This document shows positions 14,982 to 34,495 of a stretch of DNA of 35,652 nt, in pieces; the stretch's first letter is position 1; the number at the start of each line of letters is the position of its first letter. The notes beneath the pieces were generated by a model. It was not told the origin of the DNA. It worked only from the letters and a program-made list of their open reading frames with translations, and searched no databases. Location: contig JAJZSR010000008.1 in the NCBI GenBank assembly GCA_021849595.1, forward strand, positions 394 to 36,045, written 5' to 3'. Made by a program: the position numbers and the translations under genes. The stretch comes from Pseudomonadota bacterium. GTDB lineage: Bacteria > Pseudomonadota > Gammaproteobacteria > Burkholderiales > Thiobacillaceae.

Positions 14982-16268
14982 ATGACGGCCATCGTTGCGA
15001 CCAACGAGACCATACTCGTGGTGGGTGGCGGCATATCCGGGATGACGGCGGCCCTGGAAGCGGCTGAAACCGGCAAGCAGGTGGTGCTGCTGGAGAAGAC
15101 TGCCGCGCTGGGTGGGCGCACTTCCCAGTTGTACCGCTATTTTCCGAAGATGTGTCACCCTGTCTGCGGTCTGGAAATCAATCTGCGCCGGCTCAAGTCC
15201 AATCCGCGCATCAAGGTGCTTACCCTGGCCGAAGTAACCGGTATCGCGGGCAGCAGCGGCGATTACACCGCCACGGTGCGGATCACGCCGCGTTACGTGA
15301 ACGAAAATTGCACGGCCTGCGGCGAATGCGCCAAGGCCGTGAGCACCCTGGTGGACGACCAGTTCAATTACAAGCTGGGCAAGACCAAGGCTGCGTATCT
15401 CCCCAATGCCATGGCCTATCCGCAGCGCTACGTGCTGGATCCTTCCATCATCGGCACGGCCGAGGCGGAAAAAGCCAAGGCGGCCTGCAAATACGGCGCC
15501 ATCGATCTGGGTCAGAAAGAAGAGATCGTGCAAATCAAGGCCGGTGCGGTGGTCTGGGCCACCGGCTGGCAACCCTACGATGCCGCCAAGATCCAGCCTT
15601 ACGGTTATGGCCGCTTCAAGAACGTCATCACCAGCGTGGAATTCGAGCGTCTGGCTGACCCGCACGGTCCTACCGGTGGCAAGCTTTTGCGCCCGTCCGA
15701 CGGCAAGGAAGCAAAGAACGTGGCATTCATCCAGTGCGCCGGCTCCCGCGACGAAAACCATCTGCGCCACTGCTCGCGCTTCTGCTGCATGGCTTCTCTG
15801 AAGCAGACGCACTATGTGCGCGAACGTTTCCCGGAAGACGGCAAATCGACCATCTACTACATCGACATCCGTGCCATCGACCGCTTCGAGGATTTCTATC
15901 AGAAGGTCAAGGCCGACAGCAGCGTGACCTTCACCAAATCCAAGGTGGCGCGCATCTCCCTAAATGAGGCCAACGGCAATCCCATCTGCCACGGCGTCAA
16001 TACCGAGGGCTATCACCGCTACGCCAACGAACACGATCTGGTGGTGTTGGCCGTGGGCATGGAACCGTCGGTGAAGGGCATGAACATTCCTGCGTCCGTG
16101 GTGGCGGATTCGAGCGGCTTCATCGAGGCAGACCCGGCCAACGGAGGCATCTTCGGCGCGGGTTGCGCCACCAATGCCTTGGATGTGAACCGTTCTGTGC
16201 AATCCGCCACGGCGGCGGCCCTGCGGGCGGTTCAGGTAGTCAACAAAGTCGCACGCGCGGAGGCATAA
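14982..16268 (+). CDS. qmoA: QmoA: HdrA-like flavoprotein of the Qmo complex
   Basis: FAD protein of 428 residues, similar to the HdrA subunit of heterodisulfide reductase. The FAD site is VVGGGISGMTAALEAAETG (about 13-31), followed by LEKTAALGGRTSQLYRYFP and CHPVCGLEI. A Cys group CTACGEC near residue 110 falls short of a full ferredoxin set. FIQCAGSRDENHLRHCSRFC and a C-terminal VVLAVGMEPS / GIFGAGCATNALDVNRS are typical of QmoA. With QmoB it is thought to pass electrons between APS reductase and the quinone pool; in sulfur oxidisers the flow is from APS reductase. A strong GAGGAGG precedes the ATG. First gene of a four-gene operon. Confidence 0.9.
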   Translation: MTAIVATNETILVVGGGISGMTAALEAAETGKQVVLLEKTAALGGRTSQLYRYFPKMCHPVCGLEINLRRLKSNPRIKVLTLAEVTGIAGSSGDYTATVRITPRYVNENCTACGECAKAVSTLVDDQFNYKLGKTKAAYLPNAMAYPQRYVLDPSIIGTAEAEKAKAACKYGAIDLGQKEEIVQIKAGAVVWATGWQPYDAAKIQPYGYGRFKNVITSVEFERLADPHGPTGGKLLRPSDGKEAKNVAFIQCAGSRDENHLRHCSRFCCMASLKQTHYVRERFPEDGKSTIYYIDIRAIDRFEDFYQKVKADSSVTFTKSKVARISLNEANGNPICHGVNTEGYHRYANEHDLVVLAVGMEPSVKGMNIPASVVADSSGFIEADPANGGIFGAGCATNALDVNRSVQSATAAALRAVQVVNKVARAEA

Positions 16269-16271
16269 GCC

Positions 16272-18512
16272 ATGTCGGCGGAAAAGAAAGTTGCAGCTTA
16301 CATTTGCAAAGGGTGCGGCCTGGGCGAACGGCTCGATGCCGACGCCCTGGTGAACGTCGCGCAAAAGGAGGGCAAGGTTCAGCTTGCCCGTTCCCACGAT
16401 CTCCTCTGCTCGGCAGAAGGCGTGGACTTGATCAAGAATGACGTCGCCAACGAAGGCGTCACCCACATCATGATCGGTGCCTGCTCGCGGCGCGCCAAGA
16501 CCGAGGCGTTTTACTTCCCGCAAAATGCGGTGGCGCGGGCCAATTTGCGCGAGGGCGTGATCTGGATCCGCCCGGACACCGAAGAGGCCCGTGAAACCAC
16601 GCAGGAAATGGCCGAAGACTACATCCGCATGGGCTGTGCCGAGGTCAAGGCCATGTCGGCGCCGGCCGGCAATCCCAACACCGGCAGTGCCCGCACCCTG
16701 CTCGTGGTCGGCGGCGGCGTGTCCGGCATGACGGCGGCGCTGGAGGCCTCCCGTACCGGCTATCCGGTCGTGCTGGTGGAAAAAAGCGGGCAGTTGGGCG
16801 GCTGGGCTGCCAAGCTGTGGAAGCGTATCCCGGTGCATGAGCCCTTCAAGGCGCCGGCGGGCACCGGGGTGGCTGATCTCGTTGCCCAGATTCAGGCCGA
16901 CCCCAACATCAAGGTCTATCTCAATGCCACGGTCACCAAGACCGACGGCGCGCCGGGGCGATTCGAAGTGCAGATCGCGACGGAATCCGGCTCGGTCGCC
17001 ACCGAGGACATCGGCGCCATCATCCAGGCCACCGGGTCGGAGCCCTATGACGCGAACAAGCTGCCTGAACTGGGCTATGGCAAGTCCCCCGACGTCGTCG
17101 ATCAGGCTGGCCTGGAGGCCTTGGCGCGCGCCGCTAACGGCGGACCCATACTCAAACCATCCGACGGCAAGCCGGTGAGGTCGGTGGCTTTTGTCCAATG
17201 TGCCGGCCAGCGTGACGCCGACGGCCAGCATCTGCCCTACTGCTCGGGCTACTGCTGCAACGCCAGCATCAAGCAGGCCATGTACTTCAAGGACGGCAAT
17301 CCGGACATCGACACCACCATTCTTTTCACCGATCTGCGTACGCCCGGTAACGGCGAGGATTTCTACCGCAGCGCACAGGAAAAAGGAGTGATCTTCTCCA
17401 AGGGCAAAGTGGCGTCGGTCAGCCCGGGTGCGGGCGCGCTCACGGTGAATTTCCATGACCTGATCCTGGACGACAAGGACGCCAAGCTGGAGGTGGATCT
17501 GGTGGTGCTGGCGACCGGCCAGGTGCCCAACTCCGGGGTCGATATCGAGGCGCTGAGCAAACCGCCGGTCGAGGGGGAAGGCGGCGAGGCGACGGTCGAA
17601 GCCAAGCCCATCTCCATCCTCAATCTGCAGTACCGGCAGGGGCCCGATGTCCCGCAATTGAAATGGGGTTTCACCGACTCGCACTTCATCTGCTTCCCCT
17701 ATGAAACACGCCGCACGGGCATCTATACCGTGGGCCCGGTGCGCCGTCCCATGGATATGGCGCAGGCGCGCGAGGATGCCACCGGGGCGACGCTGAAGGC
17801 CATCCAGGCCATCGAAAACGCCCAGTTGGGGCGGGCCGCGCATCCGCGTTCGGGGGATTTGTCCTTCCCCAAGGTGCGTCTGGAGGGCTGCACCCAGTGC
17901 AAGCGTTGCACGGTGGAATGCCCCTTCGGTGCGATCGACGAGGACGAGAAGCGCTTTCCGTTGTTCAACGAATCGCGTTGCCGGCGCTGCGGCACCTGCA
18001 TGGGCGCCTGCCCGGTGCGGGTGATCTCTTTTGAGAACTACTCAGTCGATACCGTGGGTTCCCAGATCAAGGCGGTGGACATCCCGGACGAGTTCTCGGA
18101 AAAGCCCCGCATCCTTATTCTGGCCTGCGAAAACGACGCCTATCCGGCGCTGGACATGGCCGGCATGCAGCACAACGAATACAGCGCCTTCGTGCGCATC
18201 GTTCCGATTCGCTGCCTGGGATCGGTCAATACCATCTGGATCACCGATGCCCTCAATGCCGGTTATGACGGCGTCATGCTCATGGGCTGCAAGCACGGCG
18301 AGAATTATCAGTGCCACTTCGTCAAGGGCTCTGAACTCGGCCGCTACCGCTTGTCCAAGATTGATGACACGCTGAAGAACCTCAACCTGGAAACCGACCG
18401 GGTACGGGATCTGGAAGTGGCGATTACCGACATCGAACACGTGCCGGCGATGATCAATCAGTATGCCGAGCGCATCGTGGAAATGGGCATGAGCCCGTTC
18501 AAGAGCTTCTAG
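16272..18512 (+). CDS. qmoB: QmoB: HdrA-like flavoprotein with MvhD-type C-terminus
   Basis: Protein of 746 residues, the usual QmoB length. Order of parts: an N-terminal HdrA-type Cys region (ICKGCGLGERL, LLCSAEG, GACSRRAKTEAF; about 10-85); an FAD site VVGGGVSGMTAALEASRTG near 140; FVQCAGQRDADGQHLPYCSG; two [4Fe-4S] sets CTQCKRCTVECP (about 540) and CRRCGTCMGACP (about 570); and an MvhD-like domain (about 613-746) with RCLGSVN and MGCKHGENYQCHF. This flavin and cluster chain suits electron transfer, possibly bifurcating in some relatives. It follows qmoA by 3 bases; GGAGG before the ATG lies in the qmoA end. Confidence 0.9.
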   Translation: MSAEKKVAAYICKGCGLGERLDADALVNVAQKEGKVQLARSHDLLCSAEGVDLIKNDVANEGVTHIMIGACSRRAKTEAFYFPQNAVARANLREGVIWIRPDTEEARETTQEMAEDYIRMGCAEVKAMSAPAGNPNTGSARTLLVVGGGVSGMTAALEASRTGYPVVLVEKSGQLGGWAAKLWKRIPVHEPFKAPAGTGVADLVAQIQADPNIKVYLNATVTKTDGAPGRFEVQIATESGSVATEDIGAIIQATGSEPYDANKLPELGYGKSPDVVDQAGLEALARAANGGPILKPSDGKPVRSVAFVQCAGQRDADGQHLPYCSGYCCNASIKQAMYFKDGNPDIDTTILFTDLRTPGNGEDFYRSAQEKGVIFSKGKVASVSPGAGALTVNFHDLILDDKDAKLEVDLVVLATGQVPNSGVDIEALSKPPVEGEGGEATVEAKPISILNLQYRQGPDVPQLKWGFTDSHFICFPYETRRTGIYTVGPVRRPMDMAQAREDATGATLKAIQAIENAQLGRAAHPRSGDLSFPKVRLEGCTQCKRCTVECPFGAIDEDEKRFPLFNESRCRRCGTCMGACPVRVISFENYSVDTVGSQIKAVDIPDEFSEKPRILILACENDAYPALDMAGMQHNEYSAFVRIVPIRCLGSVNTIWITDALNAGYDGVMLMGCKHGENYQCHFVKGSELGRYRLSKIDDTLKNLNLETDRVRDLEVAITDIEHVPAMINQYAERIVEMGMSPFKSF

Positions 18513-30314: not shown

Positions 30315-33300
30315 ATGACCCCCAGCTTCGTTCACCTGCGCCTGCATTCCGAGTACTCCGTGACCGACGGAACTGTGCGGGTGGACGACGCAGTAGCGCT
30401 GGCCGCGGCCGACGGGATGCCGGCACTGGGTCTGAGCGATCTCGACAACACCTTCGCTTGGGTGAAGTTCTATCGAGCGGCGCGAGGCAGCGGCATCAAG
30501 CCGATATTTGGCGTCGACGCCTGGGTGTCCAATCCCAAGGATGCCCAGCGGCCCTCGCGGCTGCTCCTGTTGGTGCGCCACCTCGACGGCTATCGCAGGC
30601 TGTGCGAAATACTCACGCGCGCCTACCGCGAGGGCATGCGGCGCGGCCGGGCCGAGATCGATCCGCACTGGCTTGCCGGGGGAGCCGCGCACGGTTTGCT
30701 GGCCTTGTCCGGCGGCTTCCAGGGGGATGTCGCGCTATCGTTGTTGAGCGGTAATTACGACCAGGCAAGGCGGCAGGCCGAAACTTGGCTGGAACTGTTT
30801 CCGGAGGGCTATTATCTGGAACTGCAGCGCTTCGGGCGGCCGCAGACGGAAGCGCTGATCGATGGCCTGCTGGAATTGGGCGCGGAGCTGGGCGTCCCCA
30901 GCGTGGCCACCCATCCCATCCAGTTCGCGCAGGCGGAGGATTTCAAGGCCCACGAGGCGCGAGTCTGTATCGCCCAGGGCGAGTTGCTGGGCGATGCGCG
31001 CCGCGTCAAGGCCTACACGCCCGAGCAGTATTTCAAGAGCACGGCGGAAATGGCGGAACTGTTTGCCGACCTGCCCGAGGCCTTGGCCAATAGCGTGGAA
31101 ATCGCCAAGCGCTGCAACCTGACGCTGGAGCTAGGCAAGAGCAAACTGCCGCTTTTTCCCACCCCGGGCGGCAAAACGCTGGACGAACACATACGCGAGG
31201 CGGCCTACGAGGGTTTGGCCCGCCGCCTTGCACACCTGTATCCCGATCCGCAAGCGCGCGAAGGCAAGCGCGCCGAATACGAGAAGCGCCTAGAATTCGA
31301 GCTCGGCACCATCGTCCAGATGGGCTTCCCGGGCTATTTCCTCATCGTTGCCGATTTCATCAACTGGGCCAAGAACAACCACGTGCCGGTGGGTCCGGGG
31401 CGCGGCTCCGGAGCCGGCTCACTGGTGGCTTATAGCCTGGGCATCACCGATCTGGACCCCTTGCGCTACGATCTTCTGTTCGAGCGCTTCCTCAATCCCG
31501 AGCGCGTATCCATGCCGGACTTCGACGTGGATTTCTGCCAGGATGGGCGCGATCGCGTGATCAATTACGTCAAGGAGCGCTACGGCGCCGATGCCGTCTC
31601 GCAGATCGCCACTTTCGGCACACTCGGCTCCAAATCGGTGATCCGGGACGTCGGGCGGGTGTTGGACATGCCCTATGTCTATTGCGACAAGCTCTCCAAG
31701 CTCGTGCCCATGGAAGGAGTCAAGCCCGTTTCCCTGGCCAAGGCCCTGGAAATGGAGCCGCAATTGAAGGAGCGTTACGAGAGCGAGGAAGAAGTCAGGG
31801 AACTGTTCACCCTCGCGGACAAGCTGGAAGAACTGCCGCGCAACGTGGGCATGCATGCCGGCGGGGTGCTCATCGCGCCGGGCAAGCTGACCGATTTTTG
31901 TCCGCTATACCGCCAGGAAGGCTCGGATGCTTTCGTTTCCCAGTTCGACAAGGACGACGTCGAGGCGGTCGGTCTGGTCAAGTTCGACTTCCTGGGCCTG
32001 CGCACGCTCACCATCCTGAACGAAGCGGTCGGCTTCGTGCGGCGCCAGCCCGGCATGGAAACTTTCCGCTTGGAAGATCTTCCGCTCGACGATGCCGCGG
32101 TCTACCGACTGTTCGCGGAAGGCAACACCACCGGGGTATTTCAGTCGGAATCGCGCTCGGCCAAAGATCTGGAGCGGCGGCTCAAGGCGGATTGCTTCGA
32201 GGACATCATTGCCCTCATGGCACTGAACCGGCCCGGCCCGCTCGGGTCGGGCATGGTGGACGATTTCATCGCGCGCAAGCAGGGCAGGCAGACGCCGGAG
32301 TACTTCCATCCCGATCTGGAGCCAGTACTCAAGTCCACTTACGGCATCATCGTCTATCAGGAGCAGGTGATGCTTGTCGCCCAGATTCTGGCCGGTTACA
32401 CGCTGGGGGGGGCGGACATGCTGCGCCGCGCCATGGGCAAGAAAAAACCTGAGGAAATGGCCAAGCAGAGGGCCATTTTCCTGCAGGGGGCGCAAGGTCG
32501 CGGCGTCGACGCCAAGCTGGCGGAGCGGCTGTTCGATCTGATGGAGAAATTTGCCGAATACGGCTTCAACAAATCCCATTCCGCGGCCTACGCCCTGGTT
32601 GCCTACCAGACCGCCTGGCTCAAGGCGCATTACCCGGCCGAATTCATGGCGGCGACGCTGTCCTCGGAAATGGCCGATACCGATAAGGTGCGGGTGTTTT
32701 TCAAGGATTGCCGGGCCAACGGCATCGAAGTGCTGGCGCCGGACATCAACCTTTCCGGCTACCGCTTCGAGCCGGTCGGCCCGCGCGCGGTGCGCTATGG
32801 CCTGGGCGCCATCAAAGGCACCGGCGAGGCGGCGATCGCGGCCATCGTCGCGGCGCGCGAAACGGGGGAGCCTTTTAGCGGCTTGTTCGAACTGGCCCGG
32901 CGCGTGGACAAGAAAGCCATCAATCGGCGCGTGCTCGAAGCGTTGGTCAAGGCGGGAGCGTTTGACAGCCTGGAGAGCGACCGGGCGCGCCTGCTGGCCA
33001 GCGTGGGCATTGCGCTCGATCTGGCCGGCAAGGCGGCGCAGGATGCGGGGCAGGGGGGCTTGTTCGGTGAAGCGGCGGCGGGGGGCGACGAGCCTCTGGT
33101 CGACGTTCCGGGCTGGGGTGACGTGGAAAAGCTCTTGCAGGAAAAGTCTGCTTTGGGCTATTACCTGTCGGGCCATCCGTTCACCGCCTATGCTCCAGAA
33201 GTGCGCAGATTTGCCAGGAGGCCCTTGGCCGAACTGGAGGCCGGCCGGGAACTGCAGGTCTTAGCGGGCATCGTGACCGGTCTGCGCACGCAGATGACGC

Positions 33301-33752
33301 GGCGGGGAAAAATGGCCATTCTGCTGCTCGATGACGATACTGCCCCCCTGGAAGTGGCAATCTTCAACGAACAGTTCGAGCGATTCCGCGACTGGCTCAA
33401 GGAAGATACTTTGCTTGTTGTCGAAGGCAAGGTTAGCCGGGACGACTATTCCGGCGGTCTGCGCATCACGGCGGAACAGTTGTATGACTTGGCGGGGGCG
33501 CGCAGCCGCTTCGCGCAGGCTTTGAGTCTCCGGCTCAACGGTCAGGCGGATGCGGACAAGCTCAAGAAAATATTGGGAGACTACCGCCGGGCTGCGCCAG
33601 CAGGCTGCCCGGTGTATCTCGTTTATTACAATGGCTTGGCCGAATGTCAGCTAAGGCTGGGGGAGGGCTGGCAGGTCAATCTGCAGGACCGGCTGCTGGA
33701 ATCCCTCCGGGCCTGGCTGGATGACGCCAGTGTTACGGTGTGCTACCAATAA
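30315..33752 (+). CDS. dnaE: DNA polymerase III alpha subunit
   Basis: Replicative polymerase subunit of 1145 residues, close to the usual 1160. The N-terminal PHP domain starts FVHLRLHSEYSVTDGTVRVD. The catalytic acidic residues are in MPDFDVDFCQDGRDRVINYV (about 400-405) and LVKFDFLGLRTL (about 559). Other markers are GPGRGSGAGSLVAYSLGITD, GVFQSESRSAKDL, NRPGPLGSGMVDDFIARK and GFNKSHSAAYALVAYQTAWL. A C-terminal OB fold (about 985-1060) includes LAGIVTGLRTQMTRRGKMAI. No frameshift is seen. GAGGAA stands before the ATG. It is flanked by amtB and a candidate sRNA and seems to be monocistronic. Confidence 0.97.
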   Translation: MTPSFVHLRLHSEYSVTDGTVRVDDAVALAAADGMPALGLSDLDNTFAWVKFYRAARGSGIKPIFGVDAWVSNPKDAQRPSRLLLLVRHLDGYRRLCEILTRAYREGMRRGRAEIDPHWLAGGAAHGLLALSGGFQGDVALSLLSGNYDQARRQAETWLELFPEGYYLELQRFGRPQTEALIDGLLELGAELGVPSVATHPIQFAQAEDFKAHEARVCIAQGELLGDARRVKAYTPEQYFKSTAEMAELFADLPEALANSVEIAKRCNLTLELGKSKLPLFPTPGGKTLDEHIREAAYEGLARRLAHLYPDPQAREGKRAEYEKRLEFELGTIVQMGFPGYFLIVADFINWAKNNHVPVGPGRGSGAGSLVAYSLGITDLDPLRYDLLFERFLNPERVSMPDFDVDFCQDGRDRVINYVKERYGADAVSQIATFGTLGSKSVIRDVGRVLDMPYVYCDKLSKLVPMEGVKPVSLAKALEMEPQLKERYESEEEVRELFTLADKLEELPRNVGMHAGGVLIAPGKLTDFCPLYRQEGSDAFVSQFDKDDVEAVGLVKFDFLGLRTLTILNEAVGFVRRQPGMETFRLEDLPLDDAAVYRLFAEGNTTGVFQSESRSAKDLERRLKADCFEDIIALMALNRPGPLGSGMVDDFIARKQGRQTPEYFHPDLEPVLKSTYGIIVYQEQVMLVAQILAGYTLGGADMLRRAMGKKKPEEMAKQRAIFLQGAQGRGVDAKLAERLFDLMEKFAEYGFNKSHSAAYALVAYQTAWLKAHYPAEFMAATLSSEMADTDKVRVFFKDCRANGIEVLAPDINLSGYRFEPVGPRAVRYGLGAIKGTGEAAIAAIVAARETGEPFSGLFELARRVDKKAINRRVLEALVKAGAFDSLESDRARLLASVGIALDLAGKAAQDAGQGGLFGEAAAGGDEPLVDVPGWGDVEKLLQEKSALGYYLSGHPFTAYAPEVRRFARRPLAELEAGRELQVLAGIVTGLRTQMTRRGKMAILLLDDDTAPLEVAIFNEQFERFRDWLKEDTLLVVEGKVSRDDYSGGLRITAEQLYDLAGARSRFAQALSLRLNGQADADKLKKILGDYRRAAPAGCPVYLVYYNGLAECQLRLGEGWQVNLQDRLLESLRAWLDDASVTVCYQ

Positions 33753-33816: not shown

Positions 33817-33845
33817 TTGCACAAATAAGAAAAATATTAGAAAAT
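33817..33845 (+). promoter_or_regulatory. Promoter of the candidate sRNA
   Basis: TTGCAC (33817-33822), 17 bases, GAAAAT (33840-33845; four of six). The predicted start, about 33852, is exactly the first base of the sRNA's 5' stem, which supports the pairing of promoter and RNA. Confidence 0.45.
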
Positions 33846-33852
33846 TCTAATA
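33835..33852 (+). promoter_or_regulatory. 18-bp palindrome over the sRNA promoter
   Basis: TATTAGAAAATTCTAATA is a perfect inverted repeat (8-2-8) covering the -10 and start site, an operator-like position. It shares TTAGA/TCTAA halves with the PerR-like boxes, but with 4 instead of 5 bases between them. Confidence 0.4.
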
Positions 33853-33947
33853 ACACTAACGCACTTGCTCAGCAGGTCTTAGTGTTGTCTCCTCCATCCT
33901 CCTCCTTTGGTGGATTTTAAAGCCCGGTTCAAACCGGGCTTTTTTTT
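33852..33947 (+). ncRNA. Candidate small RNA with anti-Shine-Dalgarno segment
   Basis: This RNA of about 96 bases fills most of the 305-base gap after dnaE. It has three parts. The 5' stem-loop pairs AACACTAA (33852-33859) with TTAGTGTT (33879-33886), with an inner CTTGC/GCAGG stem. A C-rich, probably single-stranded stretch follows (33888-33908) with CTCCTCC and CCTCCTCCTTT. Last comes a strong terminator with eight T. CCTCCTTT resembles the 16S rRNA 3' end, so the RNA could pair with AAAGGAGG sites on mRNAs. This layout resembles C-rich-loop sRNAs of other proteobacteria. No known family was recognised, and it could also be a leader attenuator for the next gene. Confidence 0.55.
33919..33947 (+). 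terminator. Rho-independent terminator of the candidate sRNA
   Basis: AAAGCCCGG (33919-33927), loop TTCAAA, CCGGGCTTT (33934-33942), with eight T in a row (33940-33947). It is the strongest terminator in the window. Confidence 0.88.
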
Positions 33948-34057: not shown

Positions 34058-34288
34058 ATGAAAGCCAGTTTCGATCCCAAAAACGGCCTGGAACTCCAGT
34101 TTGACGCAGCCGAAGCCCGCAAACTGGCGCAGGATATCATCCAGCATTCCGAGGCGGCCAATACCCTGGTGCTTAACTTGGCCTATGCCTTGCGGGAGGC
34201 GGACTACGACTTGAAGAATCACTTCCGTCAGCCGCCCCATGCTTGGGATGAGCAGCATGTGCCGTGGCCCAGCACGCACACGCATTGA
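34058..34288 (+). CDS. Small protein of unknown function (76 residues)
   Basis: I do not recognise this protein. It has a strong AGGAGG 7 bases before the ATG, which supports it being real. The N-terminal part may be a short strand pair (ASFDPKNGLELQFDA), then a helix (AEARKLAQDIIQHSEAAN, then TLVLNLAYALREADYDLKNH), and a His/Pro/Trp-rich tail (PPHAWDEQHVPWPSTHTH) that could bind metal. It has no Cys, signal peptide or membrane segment. It ends 9 bases before the next small gene, with which it probably forms a pair. Confidence 0.65.
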   Translation: MKASFDPKNGLELQFDAAEARKLAQDIIQHSEAANTLVLNLAYALREADYDLKNHFRQPPHAWDEQHVPWPSTHTH

Positions 34289-34297
34289 GAGAATGAT

Positions 34298-34495
34298 ATG
34301 GACATTGAAGCCGATGCTGCCCGGATCGCCGCGCGCCTGGATGCGGGCGATGCCGCCAAGCTGCTGCAGGGCTTGGAAGCCATGCAGGAAGAGGTTGGCA
34401 GCCTCGCCGGCGAGTTGATCCAGCTCCTGCGGGCGGCTGGTGTGGTCGCGCCGCCTGCGGGGCCCGTGCGCAGCGAATACGCCGGTCCGCAATAA
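34298..34495 (+). CDS. Small helical protein of unknown function (65 residues)
   Basis: Not recognised. It consists of an Ala/Leu-rich helix with heptad-like spacing (AARIAARLDAGDAAKLLQGL, then EEVGSLAGELIQLLRAAG) and a short Pro-rich tail. It could be a coiled-coil or dimerisation peptide. GAGAATGAT precedes the ATG; the Shine-Dalgarno is moderate. It follows the 76-residue gene by 9 bases and ends 6 bases before the stop of icd on the other strand. Confidence 0.6.
   Translation: MDIEADAARIAARLDAGDAAKLLQGLEAMQEEVGSLAGELIQLLRAAGVVAPPAGPVRSEYAGPQ

Follow-up and report, generated by a model that had tools for sequence, protein, structure and literature searches.

The gap that follows dnaE in a stretch of Thiobacillaceae DNA (35,652 nucleotides in full, hereafter the window) had been proposed, in an initial annotation made from the letters, to hold a small RNA (sRNA) gene with a promoter, a two-part 5' stem-loop, C-rich segments resembling an anti-Shine-Dalgarno sequence and a strong terminator. 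All these features were found where they had been placed, and the locus raises the questions of which kind of RNA this is, which mRNAs it would act on and what would switch it on. Our overall model, to which we assign a probability of roughly 0.6, is that the gene encodes a trans-acting sRNA of the Rfam family RF02278 that would block ribosome-binding sites, and that its promoter would be repressed by an ArsR-type protein similar to BigR and SqrR and released by reactive sulfur. Members of this family of toxic sRNAs occur widely among Betaproteobacteria, and to our knowledge few of the triggers that switch them on have been described.

An RF02278 gene downstream of dnaE

The features discussed below, all on the forward (+) strand, are as follows.

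33852-33947, +: sRNA gene, predicted RNA of about 96 nt; promoter, 5' hairpin, anti-Shine-Dalgarno stretch, second hairpin and terminator
33817-33822, +: -35 element TTGCAC, assigned from the sequence and the conserved TTG with its 17-base spacer
33840-33845, +: -10 element GAAAAT (consensus of the relatives, GANAAT)
33836-33851, +: dyad ATTAG-N6-CTAAT, putative operator for an ArsR protein similar to BigR and SqrR; overlies the -10 element, last base at -1
33852-33886, +: 5' hairpin, first base at the predicted +1; assigned from compensatory changes and folds
33886-33947, +: RF02278 core, full-length Rfam match
33887-33895, +: site 1, single-stranded anti-Shine-Dalgarno stretch GUCUCCUCC, unchanged in nearly all relatives
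33896-33915, +: second hairpin AUCC...GGAU, with site 2 (UCCUCCUCCUUU) exposed in and around its loop
33919-33947, +: intrinsic terminator
30315-33752, +: dnaE (DNA polymerase III alpha; NF004226, 1451.6 bits), upstream neighbour outside the RNA

Positions 33886-33947 match the RF02278 model (Betaproteobacteria toxic sRNA) from end to end (model positions 1-64 of 64; E 1.2e-10) with 63.2 bits, where this covariance model has its cut-off, the gathering score, at 50 bits. An Rfam scan of the whole window returned no other match. The conserved UGUCUCCUCC of the family is present, and behind it come a hairpin whose loop is CU-rich and the intrinsic terminator. The RNA is a new member of a known family; the view of it as a candidate of a new kind was not borne out.

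Scores above the cut-off were obtained for 41 of 61 relatives and, across the order (Burkholderiales in the taxonomy used), for 114 of 300 genomes. Among 369 genomes sampled from the whole class, such a match occurred solely in the genome of the window and in two more genomes, both from this order, and none of 14 control genomes had one; above the cut-off, the family was confined to this order in the genomes searched, in agreement with its restriction to Betaproteobacteria. The exact core sequence recurs in 35 named contigs, mostly from Thiobacillus, Parasulfuritortus and related metagenome assemblies, and dnaE lies directly upstream of the sRNA in most Thiobacillaceae loci with enough flanking sequence. 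There is one RF02278 copy in the genome of the window, whereas three genomes of another family (G043, G457 and G575, family f8) have eight or nine copies, some of them in tandem.

The 96-mer folds at -37.2 kcal/mol, compared with -18.5 +/- 3.1 for shuffled sequences (z = -6.1; 0 of 200 as good). The terminator with eight T, as annotated, consists of a 10-pair stem (33919-33942) and a T run at 33940-33947. The C-rich region had been described as unpaired, which holds for GUCUCCUCC, a stretch unchanged in nearly all relatives, whereas the second motif lies in or around the loop of the second hairpin. The proposed promoter was not called by a scan for the sigma-70 consensus but is supported by conservation: each of the 47 distinct promoters aligned has the -35 TTG at a distance of exactly 17 bases from GANAAT, the alignment having taken its register from part of the -10 motif rather than from the TTG. 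Conservation in relatives extends to the core, the stem of the 5' hairpin, the promoter and the terminator; a lack of conservation in relatives had been named as the observation that would speak against the sRNA. Two open frames 3' of the gene, 34058-34288 (76 residues) and 34298-34495 (65 residues), matched no Pfam family.

Characterized members of RF02278 include ncS03, ncS05, ncS27/BdhR1 and ncS62 of Burkholderia cenocepacia (PMC5688073, PMC4603805), which are reported to inhibit the growth of Escherichia coli when cloned; for ncS27, a shift in carbon-source use and an association with shutdown of metabolism have been described (PMC10987360, PMC5688073). The RNA described here shares with them two hairpins, the second being the terminator, CU-rich unpaired regions and predicted cover of ribosome-binding sites, and differs from them in its single copy, its extra covarying 5' hairpin from +1, its promoter dyad and its dnaE locus. 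With S17 of Bordetella pertussis it shares Site 1 (here GUCUCCUCC), site 2 (here a CUCC-rich loop) and the type of terminator; peculiar to S17 are a 190 nt RNA that RNase E cuts to 67 nt, regulation by Bvg state and a locus near coq7 (PMC11722255). S17 binds Hfq, represses mRNAs at their ribosome-binding sites, among them BP2158 directly, and its deletion de-represses 92 genes, 70 of which have complementary ribosome-binding sites; its sites 1 and 2 are reported to be conserved in other Betaproteobacteria (PMC11722255). The mode of action of these relatives supports the annotated role, in which a free-standing sRNA would act in trans by pairing its C-rich stretches with Shine-Dalgarno sequences. 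Neisseria NmsRb (RF02877) and Burkholderia anti-hemB/ncS16 (RF02837, RF02866) are likewise CU-rich sRNAs of the anti-Shine-Dalgarno type, and their matches here (26.5, 29.1 and 23.8 bits), all under the gathering scores, indicate similar working and not membership. The anti-hemB, NmsRb and ErsA families of Rfam were rejected as the identity of this RNA on scores below their cut-offs.

The 5' hairpin and the extent of the RNA

The 5' hairpin is not covered by the Rfam model and overlaps the RF02278 match by a single base, 33886, with which the hairpin ends and the match begins. We registered its stem from the two ends, because RNAalifold applied to a MAFFT alignment misplaces it owing to gaps caused by varying loop length. 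Over the seven outer pairs of 44 distinct sequences, the relatedness of which inflates counts of this kind, 287 of 308 cells hold a standard pair, as against 255 +/- 3.5 (maximum 267) in 1000 shuffles, and 16 pairs of types are compensatory, differing on both sides, as against 7.2 +/- 2.1 (maximum 14). The variants include AACACTG...CAGTGTT, GACACTG...CAGTGTC, AACGCTG...CAGCGTT and GCCGTTGA...TCAACGGC, and stem positions 1, 4, 5 and 6 have changed repeatedly, in several lineages. The paired changes that the initial annotation had suggested looking for are found, and the pairing of the hairpin is maintained through compensatory change.

In 18 of 47 relatives, although not in the genus of the window, the hairpin contains a CUCC motif, a possible third pairing site. 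Other families have a different leader or none, the RNA then starting at the core, which itself stays unchanged across families that differ in terminator sequence; the hairpin shows RF02278 to be a fixed core with exchangeable 5' modules. Since it leaves all the 5' nucleotides paired, it probably protects the RNA. One metagenome assembly (JACAEC01; L039, L048) contains two versions of the sRNA that differ in the 5' hairpin, which would mean either that the gene is present twice or that the bin is mixed.

These observations bear on what the functional RNA is. The position directly behind dnaE and the strength of the terminator would fit a mere terminator of dnaE transcription, or an attenuator of the 76-residue gene, with no trans-acting sRNA at all; given a conserved promoter of its own, characterized relatives at other genomic places and a core identical across families while the terminator sequence varies, we regard this as very improbable. 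A rather unlikely, if far less remote, reading is that the RNA functions as a short, processed molecule from about 33886-33888, the 5' hairpin being a discarded leader as in S17. Processing of S17 and ncS27 does occur where the conserved core begins (PMC11722255, PMC5688073), the core of some other families directly follows the -10 element, so that the RNA starts there (for example L118 and L078), and the genome of the window has two RNase E/G genes; yet the 5' stem is maintained by compensatory change, and the CUCC motif in the hairpins of relatives would be pointless in a leader that is thrown away. A stem flush with +1 should, moreover, hinder 5'-dependent cleavage, which also counts against processing. 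We favor a primary transcript of about 96 nt, which would be made from a promoter of the sigma-70 type, start near 33852 and end at the terminator at 33947.

The promoter dyad and a putative ArsR-type regulator

A dyad that the initial annotation had not mentioned, at 33836-33851, overlies the promoter. Part of the -10 motif had served as the anchor of the promoter alignment, and the dyad was therefore tested anew, free of this anchor, by scanning the 80 bases upstream of the core: ATTAG-N6-CTWAT with at most one mismatch is present at 34 of 34 Thiobacillaceae loci read, and exactly at 31 (shuffle mean, 0.015 loci), and at these loci always ends immediately before the 5' hairpin or one base earlier. 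It also occurs at the sRNA, exactly or with one mismatch, in families f15, f217, f230, f228 and f210, and was not found there in f18, f213, f221, f26, f11, f4 and f10. The sRNA promoter has the only exact copy in the genome of the window; with up to one mismatch allowed, copies in this genome are at chance level (11 vs 11), and exact copies alone were therefore used. A search of 37 genomes gave few copies of the dyad in each and almost none of the reversed pattern. No description of either the 5' hairpin or the promoter dyad of this sRNA was found in the literature searched, and the covarying hairpin and the near-invariant dyad of Thiobacillaceae look new for the family.

The dyad is linked to the gene for an ArsR-type protein. 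Among the matches listed, nine exact dyads lie within 190 bases of this arsR gene, compared with 0.02 expected, and at arsR loci read directly the dyad is in the promoter that follows, 59-170 nt after the stop codon (exact at 12 loci, with one mismatch at 2); at one locus (L212) it separates the ArsR gene from an efflux operon. RND/TolC efflux genes are the commonest neighbors of arsR in the family, which counts against our overall model. Elsewhere, exact dyads adjoin genes for SoxC, whose score exceeds the curated cut-off, for a sulfur transporter protein of the YeeE/YedE type with the domain PF04143, and for a Blh-like sulfur dioxygenase, which at 361.8 bits stays below its cut-off.

Orthologues of this protein, with 82-92% identity, are encoded in 22 of the 23 Thiobacillaceae genomes searched, the exception being a genome that is 80% complete. 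Its best matches among solved structures are BigR (the top PDB match), YgaV, HlyU and SqrR, all of them ArsR-type sensors of sulfur or redox state (PMC5823870, PMC9774250). Cys35 and Cys101 align with the cysteines of BigR (3pqj) and are invariant in 25 of 25 orthologues, yet the score against the NCBIfam BigR equivalog is 77 bits for a cut-off of 155; the protein is BigR-like and is not filed as BigR, and given this score its signal may be something other than sulfur. The dyad agrees with the SqrR motif, ATTC-N8-GAAT, in the ATT-N10-AAT frame and is otherwise different (PMC9774250).

Judging by these sequence patterns, a repressor with a cysteine pair would bind the dyad and control the sRNA by occluding the -10 element, and this control would probably respond to reactive sulfur: oxidation or persulfidation of the two cysteines would release the repressor and turn the sRNA on. 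Such a link between ArsR and this sRNA would be new, and no sRNA target of BigR, SqrR, YgaV or HlyU was found in the literature searched. We give about even odds to the wider proposition that, in Thiobacillaceae and several related families, the RF02278 sRNA belongs to a regulon of the BigR/SqrR-like ArsR, in which reactive sulfur would turn on this RNA and with it the repression of chosen mRNAs, perhaps with those of sulfur-oxidation genes such as qmoA among them. Should the dyad be the operator of this ArsR, the sulfur response of chemolithotrophs would include a post-transcriptional repressor, and one lineage would provide a defined sensor, a defined operator and a single-copy RNA that can be tested together with the signal.

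The same RF02278 sRNA could nevertheless act at ribosome-binding sites while the dyad is a feature of the promoter or the site of another regulator. We consider this improbable, though to be taken seriously. Its overlap with the -10 element places the dyad where the sequence would be constrained in any case, many exact dyads are not near arsR, many are situated in coding or unrelated DNA, and two genomes (G000, G001) have no dyad near arsR. The arms ATTAG and CTWAT (-16 to -13 and -5 to -1), however, fall outside the sequence required by sigma-70, and the excess of dyads beside arsR is hard to account for otherwise. In the genus of the window (L237, L238), arsR has lost its adjoining dyad, so that the connection of the BigR/SqrR-like ArsR with the sRNA there rests on orthologues; the regulator gene is conserved in the genome of the window even though the exact dyad occurs solely at the sRNA. 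Families f11 and f3 have both an arsR orthologue and the sRNA, with no dyad at the latter. Upstream of the BigR-like arsR, most Thiobacillaceae (L236-L258) have GTATTTTAGTATATTTGAATAC, perhaps a weaker operator for autoregulation, and the genus of the window differs at this place.

Pairing sites and candidate targets

The CU-rich sites, at 33887-33895 and in the loop region of 33896-33915, are predicted to pair with ribosome-binding sites of the GGAGG type, probably with the help of Hfq, and the pairing would block translation of selected mRNAs. Two Hfq proteins are encoded in the genome of the window. Of the four targets suggested by the initial annotation, qmoA stands out: its start at 14982 (GAGGAGGA / GAGGAGGAAACCCGATG) would form a duplex of -15.0 kcal/mol with site 2. 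The values for msrB (-10.1), tatA (-12.3) and the 76-residue gene (-11.4 kcal/mol) are ordinary among the 80 Shine-Dalgarno-like start sites in the window, and these three were discarded as special targets on their unremarkable energies; duplex energies ignore structure and cannot identify targets. The qmoA-like and qmoB-like genes at 14982-18512, putative names from the initial annotation and by eye, include in the first the Shine-Dalgarno sequence that matches site 2.

A perfect 9-mer target of site 1 (GGAGGAGAC before ATG) occurs once in the genome of the window, within a long open frame. There was no obviously recurrent gene with such a target among the loci of relatives that were read, and hence no conserved regulon can be named. 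The shorter GGAGGAG precedes ATG 37 times in the genome of the window, compared with 10 for the reversed pattern; real starts with this sequence include those of genes similar to class I fructose-bisphosphate aldolase and SoxA (putative names given by eye) and of one unnamed gene without known function (L186; G000:C73:2430). This last gene has GGAGGAGGAUGCAUG at its start, and its predicted duplex of -29.8 kcal/mol with the sRNA is the strongest among those examined.
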